This document shows, piece after piece, positions 2,102 to 63,897 of a stretch of DNA of 64,000 nt. The position numbers were made by a program, and so were the translations under genes. The stretch spans positions 130,718 to 194,717 of the forward strand of contig JAKOVW010000093.1 in the NCBI GenBank assembly GCA_029781865.1. Reading direction: 5' to 3'. Position 1 is the first letter of the stretch. Each line of letters opens with the position of its first letter. Under the pieces are notes generated by a model, which ran no database searches, was not told where the DNA came from, and saw only the letters and a list, made by a program, of their open reading frames with translations. The DNA comes from Bacteroidota bacterium (lineage in GTDB: Bacteria > Bacteroidota > Bacteroidia > Chitinophagales > Saprospiraceae).

Positions 2102-2137
2102 AAAAAAAAGCGAATGAGTTTTCATTCGCTTTTTTTA
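2102..2137 (+). terminator. Rho-independent terminator after tsf
   Basis: A 9-bp perfect stem (AGCGAATGA / TCATTCGCT, 2109-2117 and 2122-2130) with a four-base loop is flanked by an A-run and a T-run, so it could work on both strands. It begins five bases after the tsf stop codon and separates the rplM-rpsI-rpsB-tsf operon from pyrH. Confidence 0.9.
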
Positions 2138-2144
2138 CAATAAT

Positions 2145-2334
2145 TAGTAAGGAGTGAAGAAGTGAGGAGTTAGGAGTGAGGAGTTAGGAGCTAGGGGGTG
2201 AGGAGCTAGGAGCTAGGAACTAAGAGCTATGAGTGAGGAGCTAGGAGCTAGGAACTAAGAGCTATGAGTGAGGAGCTATGAGCTATGAGTGAGGAGTGAG
2301 GAACTAGGAGCTAAGAACTCTAGGGGTGAGGCGC
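2145..2334. repeat. Heptad tandem array, GNNAGGA family
   Basis: The tsf-pyrH gap is filled with degenerate 7-bp units such as GTGAGGA, GTTAGGA, GCTAGGA, ACTAAGA and GCTATGA. From 2198 to 2316 seventeen units follow without a register slip. Inside is a perfect 35-bp direct repeat (five heptads) at 2198-2232 and 2233-2267. Purine-rich on the + strand. No gene or known mobile element is visible. Confidence 0.9.
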
Positions 2335-3086: not shown

Positions 3087-3285
3087 TTGAATTTGGTGAA
3101 CAGTTGTTAGTTTACAGTTGGCAGTTGGCAGTTTGCAGTTTGGTTTAATTGTAATTTTTCTTTGTTTTTATAAAATGGATTTGTCTGTAAATTTTATTTC
3201 CATTTAAATTTTCAATTAAATGTGTTTGCTGTCTCATCGTATAGATCTCAGATCTCCTCTATTTTTCATTTTACAATCACATCCA

Positions 3286-3361
3286 CAATCATGTCACCCC
3301 GTCGGGGTTGGATGCATTCATTTCATCGTGCTACAATCATTTCACCCCGTCGGGGTTGGAT
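3286..3361. repeat. REP-like palindromic elements, first pair
   Basis: Two near-identical units (3286-3313 and 3334-3361) each contain CACCCCGTCGGGGTTGGAT after CAATCAT. The CCCC/GGGG arms can fold into a short hairpin. Related units recur at about 3481-3509 and 3691-3718, within the second block copy at 3840-3868, and near 4097-4112. Complementary-orientation versions (AACCTCGAAGAGGTGATA, AAACCCTGAAAGGGTGACA) are at about 3597-3616 and 3644-3667. The mixture of both orientations resembles BIME clusters of REP elements. No RAYT transposase gene is in the window. Confidence 0.75.
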
Positions 3362-3370
3362 CAATCTTAC

Positions 3371-4039
3371 AATTATTAATTACGTTTGCATGCGCCTGCT
3401 AAGAAAACACTCATAACTCATAGTTCAGATCTCAATTCTCATTCTCCTCAACATTTTATTGTAAAATCATTTCACCCCTACAATCATGCCACCCCTTCGG
3501 GGTTGGATTTATTCGTTTAGTCCAGTAACTATTATGTCACCCAGTGAGTCGGATTGACCCTTACGAATTAGAATTATTATTTCCTACCGTTGTATTCAAC
3601 CTCGAAGAGGTGATATTTTTGTAGCACATCATCAAAATAATGTTAAACCCTGAAAGGGTGACATTATTTTTTCATCAATCATTTCGCCCCTACAATCATG
3701 CCACCCCTACGGGGTTTTATAATGAATGCAATTATTAATTTCGTTTGCAGTCACACGTTAAGAAAACACTCATAACTCATAGTTCAGATCTCAATTCTCA
3801 TTCTCCTCAACATTTTATTGTAAAATCATTTCACCTCTACAATCATACCACCCCTCCGGGGTTGGATTTATTCGTTTAGTCCAGTAACTAATATGTCACC
3901 CAGTGAGTCGGATTGACCCTTACGAATTAGAATTATTATTTCCAACCGTTGTATTCAACCTCGAAGAGGTGATATTTTTGTAGCACATCATCAAAATAAT
4001 GTTAAACCCTGAAAGGGTGACATTATTTTTTCATCAATT
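3371..4039. repeat. Long direct repeat, two ~310-bp copies at 359-bp period
   Basis: The block at 3371-3680 recurs at 3730-4039 with a constant offset of 359 bp and only scattered substitutions. Each copy contains ACTCATA heptads, a forward REP-like unit, the segment CAGTGAGTCGGATTGACCC, and two reverse REP-like units. A partial third copy of the block start (AATTATTAGTTTCGTTTG, then GCGCCTGCTAAGAAA) is at about 4122-4157. It looks like a segmental duplication of a composite repeat. Confidence 0.9.
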
Positions 4040-4206
4040 ATTTCACCCATACAATCATTTCGCCCCTACAATCATGCCACCCCTACAATCATTTCACCCT
4101 TCGGGGTTTGATCTTTCATACAATTATTAGTTTCGTTTGAATGCGCCTGCTAAGAAATCACTCATAACTCATAACTCCTAGTTCCTAGCTCCTTGCTCCT
4201 AATTCC

Positions 4207-4214
4207 TATCTTTA
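4207..4214 (+). promoter_or_regulatory. Candidate -7 box of ruvA
   Basis: TATCTTTA matches the Bacteroidota -7 consensus TAnnTTTG at seven of eight positions and ends three bases before the ruvA ATG. If used, transcription would begin at or inside the start codon, giving a leaderless message. No -33 TTTG is clear, since upstream is a heptad array. Confidence 0.4.
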
Positions 4215-19628: not shown

Positions 19629-19690
19629 ATTCAATTACTAATGACAAATTATCAATTACTAATTAATAATTAGTAATTGAAATTGTGAAT
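19627..19690. repeat. AT-rich heptad array with perfect hairpin
   Basis: Directly after metH, units such as CAATTAC, TAATGAC, AAATTAT, TAATTAA and TAATTAG follow at a 7-bp period. Within it 19653-19665 and 19667-19679 are perfect 13-bp inverted arms around a single base. The hairpin has no T-run, but may help end metH transcription. Confidence 0.65.
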
Positions 19691-19737
19691 TTTGATTTTA
19701 TATTTACAAATCTCATCAGTAGTGTTAAACGCATTGC

Positions 19738-26827: not shown

Positions 26828-26844
26828 GCTGCGAAATTACAGGT

Positions 26845-27345
26845 TATAGGTAATAGGGTGTAGGTTTTTAGGTGGTAGGCTTTAGGTTTTTAGGTTGTAG
26901 GTTTTTAGGCGTTAGCTATTTAGGCTATAGACGGAAGGAGCTTAGGTGGCAGAGGAAAAGGTAGTAGCGGTTTAGACTGTAGCAATTTAGTCTATAGCGG
27001 TTTAGTCTATAGACTATAGTCGGAAGTAGTTTAGAAGGATTAATACTGTGTTATAAGTAAGACTATTTTTTGAATTGATAGAATTCTAATGTAAAATATG
27101 TTAAATTCTAACTAACCTGCTAAAACGTAGATTCCTAATATCAATACTACAAAAGTCTTAATCCGTTCAATCTAAAGCATATATTACTACAACCTAAACT
27201 GCTACAGCCTAAAAACCTACAGCCTACATTCCTATAGCCTAAAAACCTAACACCTAAAAACCTAACACCTAAACACCTACAACCTAAATTACTACAACCT
27301 AAACTGCTACAACCTAAAAGCCTAAAAACCTACTGCCAAAAACCC
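26845..27345. repeat. Inverted pair of 7/8-bp arrays between divergent genes
   Basis: The left arm (about 26845-27040) is made of alternating 7- and 8-bp words on the + strand such as GTTGTAG and GTTTTTAG, later TCTATAG and CGGTTTAG. The right arm (about 27181-27334) has the complementary words CTACAAC and CTAAAAAC. An example of exact pairing is GTAGGTTTTTAGGC at 26897-26910 with its reverse complement at 27207-27220. Between them is unique AT-rich sequence. The whole lies between DUF3109 (minus) and gltA (plus) and could extrude a long imperfect hairpin. Confidence 0.85.
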
Positions 27346-29660: not shown

Positions 29661-29757
29661 TCTTAACCGCAAAGACGCAAAGGTTTCGCAAAGGACGCAA
29701 AGACGCAAAAGATGCGAAGGACGCGAAGGATGCAAAGGATGCAAAGGATGCGAAGTT
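29661..29757. repeat. 8-9-bp tandem array, GCAAAGGAC family
   Basis: Following the VanZ-like gene, words such as GCAAAGAC, GCAAAGGAC, GCGAAGGAT and GCAAAGGAT repeat about eleven times with a period of mostly 8 or 9 bp. It is G/A-rich on the + strand and has no gene. The family differs in period and sequence from the heptad arrays elsewhere in the window. Confidence 0.85.
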
Positions 29758-31246: not shown

Positions 31247-31352
31247 GACGCAGATTGGGACGCAGATTACACAGATTACGCAGATTAGGACGCAGATTAG
31301 GACGCAGATTACACAGATTACGCAGATTAGGGACGCAGATTACGCAGATTAC
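31247..31352. repeat. 9/12-bp tandem array, ACGCAGATT family
   Basis: ACGCAGATT, ACACAGATT and the 12-bp form ACGCAGATTAGG repeat about eleven times beginning right at the stop codon of the preceding gene. A reading frame through it gives TQITQIRTQ-type low-complexity protein and is not a gene. This array is a different family from the GCAAAGGAC array 1.5 kb upstream. Confidence 0.9.
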
Positions 31353-31484
31353 ACTGATATGATAGTATGGAAGCTAGTGGGTGATTTTATGGAGTTTGGG
31401 GAGGGTGGCTATATTGCATTTTCAATTCCGTCCGGAAGACCGGATTTAAATGGCCCAAAGGCTTAGCAATCCCGATTTCTAAAC

Positions 31485-31513: not shown

Positions 31514-33310
31514 ATGCGCATTGTAATTTTTCTGTTTTTCGTGTTCAGCTCGATGCTACAGGCCCAGGATCCGCGGCTGGCACAGCAATATTTCAGTGAC
31601 GGGGAATTCGAGAAAGCCGCAGGCTTGTACCAGTCGTTGTATCAAAAAAATCCGAATAATGATTCCTATTTCAACCGATACCTCGATTGTCTGCTGGCCA
31701 TGAAACAATACGATCAAAGTGAGGACCTCGTCAAAAAAGAAATCAGCCTAAGACCCAAAGAAGTTCAACTCTACGTGAGTTATGGAAATCTGCTCATCCG
31801 CAAGAATGAAGAAGAAAAAGCAGAGAAACAATTTGAACTGGCCATAGACAAATTACCTGCAGATGTATCAGCAATACACAGACTGGCCAATTCATTTATT
31901 ACTCTTGCGAAATACGATCTGGCCATCAAGACCTATGAAAAAGGAGAAAAACTGATGAAATCCCAGGTGTATTTTACCTACAACCTTGCAGATCTGTATC
32001 GCAGAAAGGGCGATCATCAAACCATGTTAAAATATTTTCTGGATGGACTGGAAAACAACACCGTTCAACTTTCAGGAGTGCAGAGTCTATTGATTACCTA
32101 TCTGACACCGGAGCAATACAAATCCCTTCAGGCCTCCCTTTATCAAAGACTGGATAAGAATCCGGAATCCATTTCACTTTCGGAATTACTTCTTTGGTCT
32201 TTCATACAGGTTAAGGATTATGCCAACGCATTGCGGCAAGCCAAAGCACTGGATCGCAAGCTGAATGAAAACGGAAACCGCGTGTACAACATCGCAGTAG
32301 CATCAGCAGCTGATAACGATCTTCGCGCTGCAATTGACGGATACAATTTTATCAAAGAAAAAGGGGCAAGCAGTTCTTTTTATCACGAGGCCTGCCGTCA
32401 GGTTTTGTTTTGCAGACGTCAATTGATCGTTGAAAAAAATGATTATAAAAAAGAAGATCTCGTTCAACTGGAATCGGATTATCAGAAATACAAAGATGAA
32501 TTTGGAAGCAATTATCTGTCTGCTTCATTGATCATTGAATACGCCGAACTCGAAGCAAGGTATCTGAACAATCTGGATAAAGCCATTCAACTGCTTCAGG
32601 AAATGGTGAAAAGCAATTATGTAGAAGCTCATATCAAGGCAAAAGCTAAACTGGACCTGGGCGATTACTATTTAATAAAAGGAGAGCGCTGGGAAGCTAC
32701 CTTATTGTATTCACAGGTTGACAAGGATTTTAAAGAAGACGAGTTGGGAGAATTGGCGCGGTTTAAAAATGCACATCTGTCTTATTTCGCCGGCGATTTT
32801 GAATGGGCAAAAGAACAATTTGACATTCTCAAACGAGCGACGAGCAAATTGATTTCTAATGACGCCATCGACCTTTCTGTGTTTATCATTGATAATCTCA
32901 ATCAGGATAGTACCGGTGTTTCCCTGAGCATGTATTCCAAAGCGGAATTAAAAGTATTTCAGAATCAATACGATTCTGCATTGATGATATTGGATAGCAT
33001 TCCATTTAATGATCCTGACACTAAGTTTCTTGAAGATGATGTCTGGTATCTTCAGGCTAAGATTTATGATCATTTAAAACAAACGGATGTCGCTATCAAA
33101 AAATATGAAATGATCCTGGAAAAACACAAAGAGGAAATCCGCGCTGACAATGCACTCTATGAATTAGCCAGGATCTACGATTATCAACTCAATAATAAAG
33201 ACAAAGCAAAAGAACTCTATGAGAAATTATTCATCGACTTCAGCAACAGCGTTCTTGCCGTCGAAGCCCGAAAACGATACAGAGTCCTGAGAGGAGATAA
33301 AGTGCAGTAA
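31514..33310 (+). CDS. Secreted tetratricopeptide repeat protein
   Basis: The 598-residue protein starts with a signal peptide ending SSMLQAQ (about residue 17). It then has TPR-like helical pairs through most of its length, for example AQQYFSDGEFEKAAGLYQSLYQKNPNN at the N-terminus and two clear units near the C-terminus (ALYELARIYDYQLNNKDKAKELYEKL). It is expected in the periplasm or at the outer membrane as an assembly scaffold. It is not recognisable as a characterised T9SS component. Single gene; a heptad array starts two bases after the stop. Confidence 0.75.
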   Translation: MRIVIFLFFVFSSMLQAQDPRLAQQYFSDGEFEKAAGLYQSLYQKNPNNDSYFNRYLDCLLAMKQYDQSEDLVKKEISLRPKEVQLYVSYGNLLIRKNEEEKAEKQFELAIDKLPADVSAIHRLANSFITLAKYDLAIKTYEKGEKLMKSQVYFTYNLADLYRRKGDHQTMLKYFLDGLENNTVQLSGVQSLLITYLTPEQYKSLQASLYQRLDKNPESISLSELLLWSFIQVKDYANALRQAKALDRKLNENGNRVYNIAVASAADNDLRAAIDGYNFIKEKGASSSFYHEACRQVLFCRRQLIVEKNDYKKEDLVQLESDYQKYKDEFGSNYLSASLIIEYAELEARYLNNLDKAIQLLQEMVKSNYVEAHIKAKAKLDLGDYYLIKGERWEATLLYSQVDKDFKEDELGELARFKNAHLSYFAGDFEWAKEQFDILKRATSKLISNDAIDLSVFIIDNLNQDSTGVSLSMYSKAELKVFQNQYDSALMILDSIPFNDPDTKFLEDDVWYLQAKIYDHLKQTDVAIKKYEMILEKHKEEIRADNALYELARIYDYQLNNKDKAKELYEKLFIDFSNSVLAVEARKRYRVLRGDKVQ

Positions 33311-33311
33311 G

Positions 33312-33525
33312 GGTTAGGAGTTAGGAGTTAGGAGTGTTGAGAGATGAGTGATAAGTGAGGAGTGATGAATTATTTAATTCAAGATTAATACAAGTTAATT
33401 TAAGTTCTACGATACGCTGTGTTCCGATCTCAGATCTCATAACTTATCTCTCATAACTCAAATCTCATAACTCATCTCTCATAACTCCGATCTCTCAGCT
33501 CCTAGTTCCTAGTTCCTCCCTTCCC
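33312..33525. repeat. Inverted pair of heptad arrays
   Basis: Left arm 33312-33369 consists of GTTAGGA, GTGTTGA, GTGATAA, GTGAGGA heptads; right arm about 33426-33520 of ATCTCAT, AACTCAT, CTCTCAT and AGTTCCT heptads, that is, the complementary words. They bracket a 55-bp AT-rich spacer between the TPR gene and the first of the T9SS cargo pair. Same architecture as 26845-27345, different sequence family. Confidence 0.85.
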
Positions 33526-61774: not shown

Positions 61775-61935
61775 GTATTAGGTTGTAGGTGTTTAGGTTG
61801 TAGGTGTTTAGGTGTTAGGCTGAAAAATATTGAATATTGAAAATTGATTATTGAACATTGATTATTGAACATTGATTATTGATTACTGACTGTTGACTGT
61901 TAACTGTTAACTCTTGACTGTTGATTGCTGATTTT
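61775..61935. repeat. Two heptad arrays upstream of rlmD
   Basis: The first (61775-61821) has alternating 7/8-bp words GTTGTAG and GTGTTTAG. The second runs 61831-61935 as fifteen consecutive heptads without a slip: TGAATAT, TGAAAAT, TGATTAT, TGAACAT, and later TGACTGT, TAACTGT, TGATTGC. It ends 14 bases before the rlmD ATG, so the rlmD promoter must lie in or before the arrays. Confidence 0.9.
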
Positions 61936-61949
61936 TTCAAAATAGTCCA

Positions 61950-63423: not shown

Positions 63424-63475
63424 TTCACTCATAACTCATAACTTATAACTCATAACTTCTTACCCCAAACTACAT
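63424..63475. repeat. ACTCATA heptad array
   Basis: ACTCATA, ACTTATA, ACTCATA and ACTTCTT words form about six units of 7 bp in the rlmD-63514 gap. It is the same family as the ACTCATA array upstream of ruvA. Confidence 0.75.
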
Positions 63476-63513: not shown

Positions 63514-63897
63514 ATGGAAGTGCCATTTGAAAAATATCTGCAACTGGAAGATGATTTACGCCGATACCGGAAAGCATTAAATCAGGCTCTGGATGTCATG
63601 CTGGATCAGGAGATCAGCAATTACCCGATTTTTTTATTACACCAGCAGGAACTGGCCATGGGTGTGAATGTTATTGAAGCCGGAGAACAAACCGGACTAT
63701 GGTCTGTCAATGCTTCCAGCCTGGAAGAATTTGCTCTGAAAGGGTTAATCGAACCGGAAAAAATTGCCGATTTTCAGAAAGTGTATAAAGAGCATACGGA
63801 TAGTTTTTGTTTATTTGTTTTATCCGAACTTGGTGCCCAATTTATTTTTTATCCACGAGCCGATCACCTCTATACCGAATATGGAACTCTCAATTGA
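63514..63897 (+). CDS. Conserved protein of unknown function
   Basis: The 127-residue soluble protein has a helical N-terminus (FEKYLQLEDDLRRYRKALNQALDVMLDQ) and a mixed C-terminal part with SEFGAQ-like region SELGAQFIFYPR. No signal peptide. I recognise no domain; the pattern is not a known enzyme. It overlaps the next gene by 17 bp, so the two are probably translated together. Given a possible Hpt partner, a signalling role is possible but unproven. Confidence 0.6.
   Translation: MEVPFEKYLQLEDDLRRYRKALNQALDVMLDQEISNYPIFLLHQQELAMGVNVIEAGEQTGLWSVNASSLEEFALKGLIEPEKIADFQKVYKEHTDSFCLFVLSELGAQFIFYPRADHLYTEYGTLN

Follow-up and report, generated by a model that had tools for sequence, protein, structure and literature searches.

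What sets tandem arrays of degenerate 7-bp units into the intergenic gaps of this Saprospiraceae genome, and does their place between genes follow a rule? The window, that is, the whole 64,000-bp stretch of DNA analysed here, is C28:130718-194717 of a 4.52-Mb genome in 93 contigs (G000). Its clearest array lies between tsf (EF-Ts, PF00889; 1260..2096, + strand) and a gene of the amino acid kinase family (PF00696; 2379..3086, + strand), for which the name pyrH is taken from the original prediction and from context. Here GAG-family words (AGGAGTT, AGGAGTG, AGCTAGG, AACTAAG and AGCTATG) occupy 2141..2319 on the + strand, beginning 44 bp from tsf and directly past a terminator-like, near-symmetric hairpin with a T-run 3' of that gene (2103..2136); the scan called this hairpin on the - strand, and a T-run end is present on the + strand too. 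Both features reported earlier, a run of 17 consecutive heptads (2198-2316) and a perfect 35-bp (5 x 7) duplication, are present exactly as claimed, and TRF returns period 7 with 21.1 copies at 2165-2313 and period 35 at 2161-2285.

Heptad arrays in the window and across the genome

The other places named as 7-bp periodic proved to be so. An AGTTGGC/AGTTTGC array (3093..3142, + strand) starts 6 bp past the pyrH stop codon and is faced, across a long gap, by a CTCATAA/CTCCTAG array (4157..4211, G-rich strand -) lying 6 bp ahead of ruvA (RuvA_N, PF01330). The GTTAGGA array at 33308..33373 (+) begins on the stop codon of a TPR-domain gene (31514-33310, Pfam) and is likewise faced by a CTCATAA/ATCTCAG array (33423..33517, -) that ends 16 bp ahead of the next ORF start. 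Two arrays of the same orientation follow the stop codon of an OmpA/PD40-domain gene (Pfam): a 15-bp array of TAGGTGTT/TAGGTTG (61778..61819, +), 13 bp past it, and one of TTGATTA and then ACTGTTG (61826..61936, +). A CTCATAA array (63427..63471, -) stands 42 bp ahead of the ORF at 63514, and the orientation of the TAATTAC/TAATTAG array at 19631..19705 is ambiguous since its sequence is largely self-complementary. The stretch 26837-27345 is a mixed array in which period 7 combines with period 15 (7+8), made up of TAGGTTTT/TAGGCTT units (26837..27012, +; 9 bp from the left ORF start) and facing CTACAACCTAAAAAC units (27172..27345, -). The epithet 'strict' for period 7 was too strong, for periods 8, 9, 15 and 16 also occur.

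The window holds other repeats as well. Between pyrH and ruvA, interspersed CAATCATTTCACCCCTA units and small ACCCC(TTC/TAC)GGGGT hairpins occupy 3288-4099, and a 359-bp tandem duplication lies at 3370-4069. Arrays of 9 bp occur at 29668-29755 (CGCAAAGGA) and at 31247-31358 (ACGCAGATT), the second starting at an ORF end. Rfam returned zero matches to the window at gathering scores.

Chance as the origin of the lag-7 segments is excluded. When gaps were resampled by a first-order Markov model, shuffles gave 0.0 segments against nine in the gaps of the window, and 0.2 against 14 in 20 stretches of 20 kb of this genome. For other lags, those 20 stretches yielded four segments (lag 8), two (lag 9), a single one (each of lags 6, 12 and 13) or zero (lags 5, 10 and 11). 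The proposed 7-bp peak in intergenic autocorrelation does exist in the genome sample (lag 7, 0.2998 versus 0.2891 ± 0.0025, z 4.4; lag 14, z 6.3), but it is modest and lag 5 is raised too (z 5.6); the coding DNA of the sample has no lag-7 peak. Arrays occur in 7 of 27 gaps of the window and in 17 of 213 gaps of at least 40 bp in the 20 stretches, the latter count being probably low because these stretches hold none of the 47 places of the genome matched by BLAST with the tsf-pyrH array as query. No sample of this genome is unbiased for array density: the first, at round coordinates on contigs known from the BLAST matches, misses all 47 places, some of which fall in the second, and the third was picked around them. 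Genes throughout are simple longest-ORF calls, not gene predictions.

The period is retained while the words drift, in agreement with the original prediction, and the words stay inside a limited lexicon. Near-perfect arrays exist (7 x GCTGTAG, 9 x TGATAAT, 8 x ATAGTCT); most arrays drift, with words from this small set. The BLAST query above found matches in 2 of 60 other sampled genomes of the family. Exact (GAGTTAG)3 has 41 matches in this genome and occurs in 5 of 295 other sampled Bacteroidota genomes, at one place each; its reversed-word control occurs in 1 of 296 genomes. No tandem set of two or more TAACTGA units was seen in 1.254 Mb of this genome, and the DNA examined holds no tandem set of GGGAATC or of CAACAGT, which is reportedly an STRR word.

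Assembly artefact had been raised as a condition that would undo the observation. It is an unlikely general cause of the arrays: TAACTNN arrays are found in long chromosome records as well, for example those of Planktothrix PCC 7821 and Calothrix NIES-267. An array in G223 includes a run of N. At L327 (1497-1851), GAGTTAG and GGGAATA units face CATTGCTC/CATTGCCC around another run of N, which is likely an assembly gap within an array.

Placement and direction of the arrays

The most informative feature of the arrays is one that the original prediction lacked, namely their polarity. Each array can be given a root, meaning the 5' end of its G-richer strand, on the gene side, and a tip, meaning its opposite end. 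The rule was spotted post hoc: a keto-rich strand leaves the left gene and an amino-rich strand heads to the right gene, as in 28 of the 34 arrays of the discovery sample. Applied unchanged to 20 new stretches, it fits 23 of 30 arrays by keto skew and 25 of 30 by G-C (30 of 36 arrays were used, gaps with an unknown flank being left out). With the discovery, test and all other sets of this genome pooled, 58 of 85 arrays have their root no more than 20 bp from a gene and 8 have their tip there, where random placement gives 11.9 ± 3.0; the 85 are those of the 91 arrays with more than 41 bp of free gap. The rule is valid at both gene ends and whether the ORF cut-off is set at 90 or at 200 aa. The prevailing arrangement is a root against coding sequence, at either gene end and in either reading direction, with the tip usually far from the next gene. 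Few are rooted behind a terminator-like hairpin: by eye, four of the 25 arrays rooted 21-400 bp off, two of them directly. An array in G319 also follows such a hairpin. Period-8 arrays obey the rule (root 10, tip 1 of 21), and period-9 arrays do not clearly do so (root 2, tip 1 of 11).

This polarity bears first on plain slippage of chance seeds, an undirected process in which placement would reflect tolerance only, away from promoters. Arrays are indeed rare in divergent gaps (6 of 117) and commoner in convergent ones (24 of 109), and the polymerase-footprint idea of Mrazek for the 7-nt unit, as cited in the accessible parts of PMC4692102 and PMC4679880, would suit it. However, slippage of this kind gives no polarity, neither the excess of roots over tips beside genes nor the arrangement of array pairs sharing one gap, of which 19 face each other, none are reversed and 10 run in the same direction. 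Nor does it account for the recurrence of one word in unrelated genomes against its reversed control. Polarity already refutes its simplest form, and we consider the wider idea unlikely.

Selection at the RNA level could produce a direction. On this view 3' UTRs would tolerate G-rich arrays or benefit from them, 5' UTRs would do so with C/A-rich ones, and wrong orientations near genes would be purged; the effect would run via quadruplexes, ribosome access or regulator binding. The 5' flanks of this genome are mildly G-poor (G-C -0.052), and tips that face a start keep about 34 bp or more away from it (5th percentile). Rehm 2015 (PMC4692102), in the parts accessible, reports the same placement and discusses regulatory effects, none of which is found there; the accessible parts of MacGregor 2015 (PMC4679880) propose a translational role for TAACTGA just before starts. 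Against this stand the convergent gaps, which contain no 5' UTR and still give root 16 and tip 2 of 24 arrays, and the 3' flanks, which have no skew. At least four GGG runs, as in the G-quadruplex consensus of four G3+ tracts, occur in only 3 of 91 arrays. Words nearly free of GG (<0.15 GG per unit) obey the rule in other taxa (root 48, tip 10 of 96, among the matches listed); in this genome the effect for such words is weak (root 10, tip 4 of 19, null 3.4). Since words that hardly contain GG, or lack it, obey the rule too, quadruplexes are unlikely to be the whole story. RNA selection appears doubtful to us.

Base composition of the flanks was rejected as a cause for 3' ends: background G-C skew after stop codons is 0.005, about 0, and therefore does not explain the 3' polarity. 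Stop codons are distinctive where arrays are rooted. An overlap of at least 3 bp with the gene end is seen at 20 of 66 3' roots and at 0 of 25 5' roots. Stop codons at 3' roots (n = 51) are TGA 27, TAG 13 and TAA 11, against TGA 186, TAG 110 and TAA 458 at other genes of this genome (n = 754; p 2e-7), and roots 3-20 bp from the stop give TGA 16, TAG 4 and TAA 5. The TGA excess is absent in other taxa, among the matches listed (18 of 80 versus 128 of 589). TAACTNN words contain TAA when read in sense, but a supply of stop codons by the repeat was rejected as the origin of their polarity: near 3' ends 17 are in sense and 39 reversed. Within this genome, TGA terminates 24 of the 37 rooted genes on the C-skewed strand, and TAG terminates 8 of the 14 on the other.

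The strand of replication might also matter, if G-rich arrays arose on one replication strand. GAG runs do follow GC skew, lying on the + strand in 30 of 33 cases where skew is below -0.02 and on the - strand in 3 of 3, from two stretches, where it is above 0.02; the other 14 of the 50 GAG runs, 7 on each strand, come from stretches with skew near zero and were not counted. The strand of GAG runs is consistent within contigs (38 clusters, p 0.0014). The replication frame (C56, C74 and the end of C60 flipped) was set after the GAG strands were known. This behaviour is confined to the GAG family: all arrays together do not correlate with GC skew over the 26 loci with arrays, and other words look balanced. 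Local gene-strand majority and GC skew were rejected as causes of orientation by the same absence of correlation. Rehm 2015 (PMC4692102), as far as accessible, found no preference for leading or lagging strand in Xanthomonas. Furthermore, the gap rule is symmetric under strand exchange and therefore cannot be caused by the replication strand, a cause that we regard as very improbable.

Word order along the root-tip axis is suggestive only. AGTTAGG tends rootward (z -3.2), as do purine words (-2.4), and AGTGATG tipward (2.3); 7 of 10 word families lie below |z| 2.

Recurrence in congeners, other phyla and known repeats

Comparison with congeners (G044, G061, G062, G063, G064, G066 and G067) shows that the arrays are mostly lineage-specific additions between genes. 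Five of the array-bearing junctions have an orthologue in the congener stretches, which allows 10 comparisons; in 8 of these the gap of the congener is the shorter one, for example 26, 7, 162 and 137 bp against 200, 188, 614 and 1131 bp here. These comparisons, with multi-unit duplications seen by eye, bear out the earlier proposal of added DNA growing by multiples of seven. The same words were seen in congeners at none of the five junctions compared. The tsf-pyrH gap measures 282 bp in G000 and 18, 77, 96 and 253 bp in congeners, and is longer in two, at 292 bp (G061, array undetected) and 362 bp (G067, with a 19-bp/7-bp array of other words). In G064 and G066 this gap is short, keeps the terminator-like hairpin and lacks the array; in G063 it holds a different heptad, GTCTATA, and the hairpin was not seen. 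Between L075 and G066 the coding ends align through a shared TGA stop, with the array 7 bp after it. Since congener gaps are mostly shorter and these ends align, the arrays look like young additions. Samples of 35-60 kb from each congener gave five lag-7 segments in G063 and three in G061, none in G064, G066, G044, G062 and G067, and in G067 one lag-14 and one lag-19 segment.

Beyond the genus, named genomes were scanned for five TAACTNN units, which gave at least 116 stretches. Those with titles, among the matches listed, are mostly from Cyanobacteria and Bacteroidota, with single loci from Chlorobi, Ignavibacteria, Poribacteria, Verrucomicrobia, Clostridia and others. Among the matches listed, a gene is present no more than 20 bp from the root for 100 of 196 arrays and equally near the tip for 13 (null 25.3), the 196 being those of 237 arrays with more than 41 bp of free gap. 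By groups set by hand from record titles, the counts among these matches are root 46 and tip 6 of 99 in Cyanobacteria, 8 and 1 of 18 in Bacteroidota with Balneolaceae, 13 and 2 of 20 at other titled loci, and 33 and 4 of 59 at untitled loci (the titles of L170-L205 were not listed). Arrays without an AGTTA word behave alike (root 55, tip 10 of 119, among the matches listed). By orientation, 70 of the 90 TAACTNN matches used are concordant, 6 of these from G000 itself; 131 merged matches were available, with 12 in ORFs and 29 at locus edges left out. TAACTNN arrays are also present in 89 IMG/VR viral-contig stretches, where the rule persists in weaker form (of 72 usable arrays, 49 have the root nearer and 23 the tip; 8 inside ORFs and 15 at edges were set aside).

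The word GAGTTAG itself offers a further comparison. In the five unrelated Bacteroidota genera with (GAGTTAG)n, three of the arrays begin right at a stop codon (-2, 0 and +2 bp), one lies 70 bp off, behind a terminator-like T-run, and one 83 bp from a start.

As heptad satellites, tandem beyond chance and with a unit within 5-11 nt, the arrays belong to a known kind of bacterial 7-nt simple sequence repeat. Cyanobacterial STRR heptamers, which Mazel is said to have described in 1990, are reportedly tandem heptanucleotides with several words per genome. The class of 5-11 nt repeats of Mrazek 2007, in which heptamers are commonest and slippage was proposed, is known to us as cited in PMC4679880 and PMC4692102, whose citing passages do not mention a placement rule. 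The original prediction knew of no well-described counterpart in this group, a view that the literature does not support. The accessible text of MacGregor 2015 (PMC4679880) describes TAACTGA heptamer arrays in five Bacteroidetes, some with other heptamers, missing from some close relatives, often forward near starts and with one reverse set just past a stop, together with a Microcystis sample of mixed orientations. Those repeats resemble the present arrays as intergenic heptamers with orientations that the root rule predicts (PMC4679880, in the parts accessible), but the words here are CTAACTC, CTCCTAG, CTCATAA and others rather than TAACTGA.

The placement rule, too, has a precedent. Rehm 2015 (PMC4692102; accessible parts) reports quadruplex-forming GGGAATC and GGGGA(C/T)T heptamers in Xanthomonas and Nostoc that lie nearer the 5' neighbouring ORF whatever its direction (Xanthomonas average 28 versus 160 nt), overlap stop codons, form inverted facing pairs, are rare between divergent ORFs and differ in repeat length between species; its reference 39 concerns Calothrix PCC 7601. 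With these repeats the arrays described here share a heterogeneous, mostly intergenic 7-nt unit, the same polarity, facing pairs, stop-codon overlap and under-representation in divergent gaps. In contrast to them, as far as that text is accessible, the present arrays use non-quadruplex words from a drifting multi-word lexicon, have 8/15-bp relatives and include a strand-biased GAG family, strand bias being absent in Xanthomonas. Prior reports described the polarity for quadruplex-forming words and discussed it as gene regulation by quadruplexes. What is new here is that quadruplexes are not needed, that GAG arrays track GC skew and that array-side stops are mostly TGA or TAG. In titles and abstract openings, with subscription papers mostly outside the search, we found no root/tip rule for GG-free words or across phyla.

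Possible origin of the arrays

How could such arrays come to be rooted at gene edges? Direction and polarity are observed, and the mechanism proposed here is inferred from them. We lean, at rather less than even confidence, to heptad satellites that expand directionally until essential DNA halts them. An array would be born as a short heptad seed and lengthen by slippage or unequal copying. It would encroach mainly rootward, following extension of the A/C-rich strand, and would consume or displace the gap DNA there until purifying selection stopped growth at essential sequence such as a stop codon, a start region or a terminator. Older units would decay on the tip side, and most arrays would be filler rather than regulators. 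The DNA past tips, taken as the 54 of 73 pieces in which no array was detected, has a weak 7/8-bp periodicity, with lag 7 at 0.320 versus 0.286 in array-free gaps; the excess is small, and lag 4 is raised too (0.312 versus 0.287).

Several observations pull against this expansion. Unit identity shows no gradient from root to tip (0.752 versus 0.764, n 65, p 0.62), which counts against it because a strictly terminal growth point predicts one. The TGA stop at L075 is identical in the array-free congener G066, which speaks against encroachment, as do the weak polarity of GG-poor words in this genome and the failure of congeners in the first orientation test (6 of 16 by keto skew, 9 of 15 by G-C); at a stricter threshold, 5 of 10 congener arrays have the root, and 0 of 10 the tip, within 20 bp. 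Furthermore, perfect (GAGTTAG)n arrays stand at stop codons in other genera, and therefore position may be set at birth rather than by slow encroachment. Local seeding leaves the occurrence of one word in unrelated genomes unexplained.

Arrays might instead have been inserted. A mobile or templated system, imagined as REP/Y1-transposase-like or reverse-transcriptase-like, would copy arrays or elements into gene or transcript ends in one orientation. The lexicon common to dozens of loci (the 47 BLAST places) and the single word beside stop codons of unrelated genera would suit such copying, and strong Y1_Tnp matches occur in the array-bearing G000, G063 and G061. They occur also in the array-poor G062 and G067, however. 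Of the six Y1_Tnp loci inspected, a single one adjoins an array (8-bp words, 2 bp upstream), and another shows a weak period-14 match at some distance, unlike REP/RAYT systems, where repeats lie beside the Y1 transposase gene. RVT_1 is absent from the array-bearing G061 and G063, although a telomerase-like or RT-templated origin would place it in every array-bearing genome, and Ku is absent from all nine genomes. Where a genome holds one exact (GAGTTAG)3 locus, a second exact one that could serve as its source is lacking. Reverse transcriptase and Ku thus do not track the arrays, Y1 transposase is not supported, and fused telomere-like ends were dropped with no Ku and no consistent RT. Site-directed insertion appears quite unlikely on this evidence. 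Beside the Y1_Tnp genes themselves, an 8-bp TAAACACC array at L225 (19334-19376) ends 2 bp upstream of an ORF matching Y1_Tnp, and a palindrome, AACAGATAGCCCATGACTTAAGTCATGGGCTATCTGTT, at L234 (1411-1448) is REP-like by eye.

Returning to directional growth, a broader form of it may be suggested tentatively, and we rate it as rather unlikely: one directional process at the DNA level, independent of quadruplexes and common to Bacteroidota, Cyanobacteria and, by Rehm's data, Xanthomonas, would keep making arrays with the G-richer strand beginning at the border of essential DNA. If this is true, bacterial gaps own a satellite with a defined root and tip, and its direction is a record of growth. 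Any mechanism for the preference for 7 nt must account for direction as well as period, which makes an old question testable. Practically, arrays of this kind mark lineage-specific growth of intergenic gaps and may misplace predicted gene ends.
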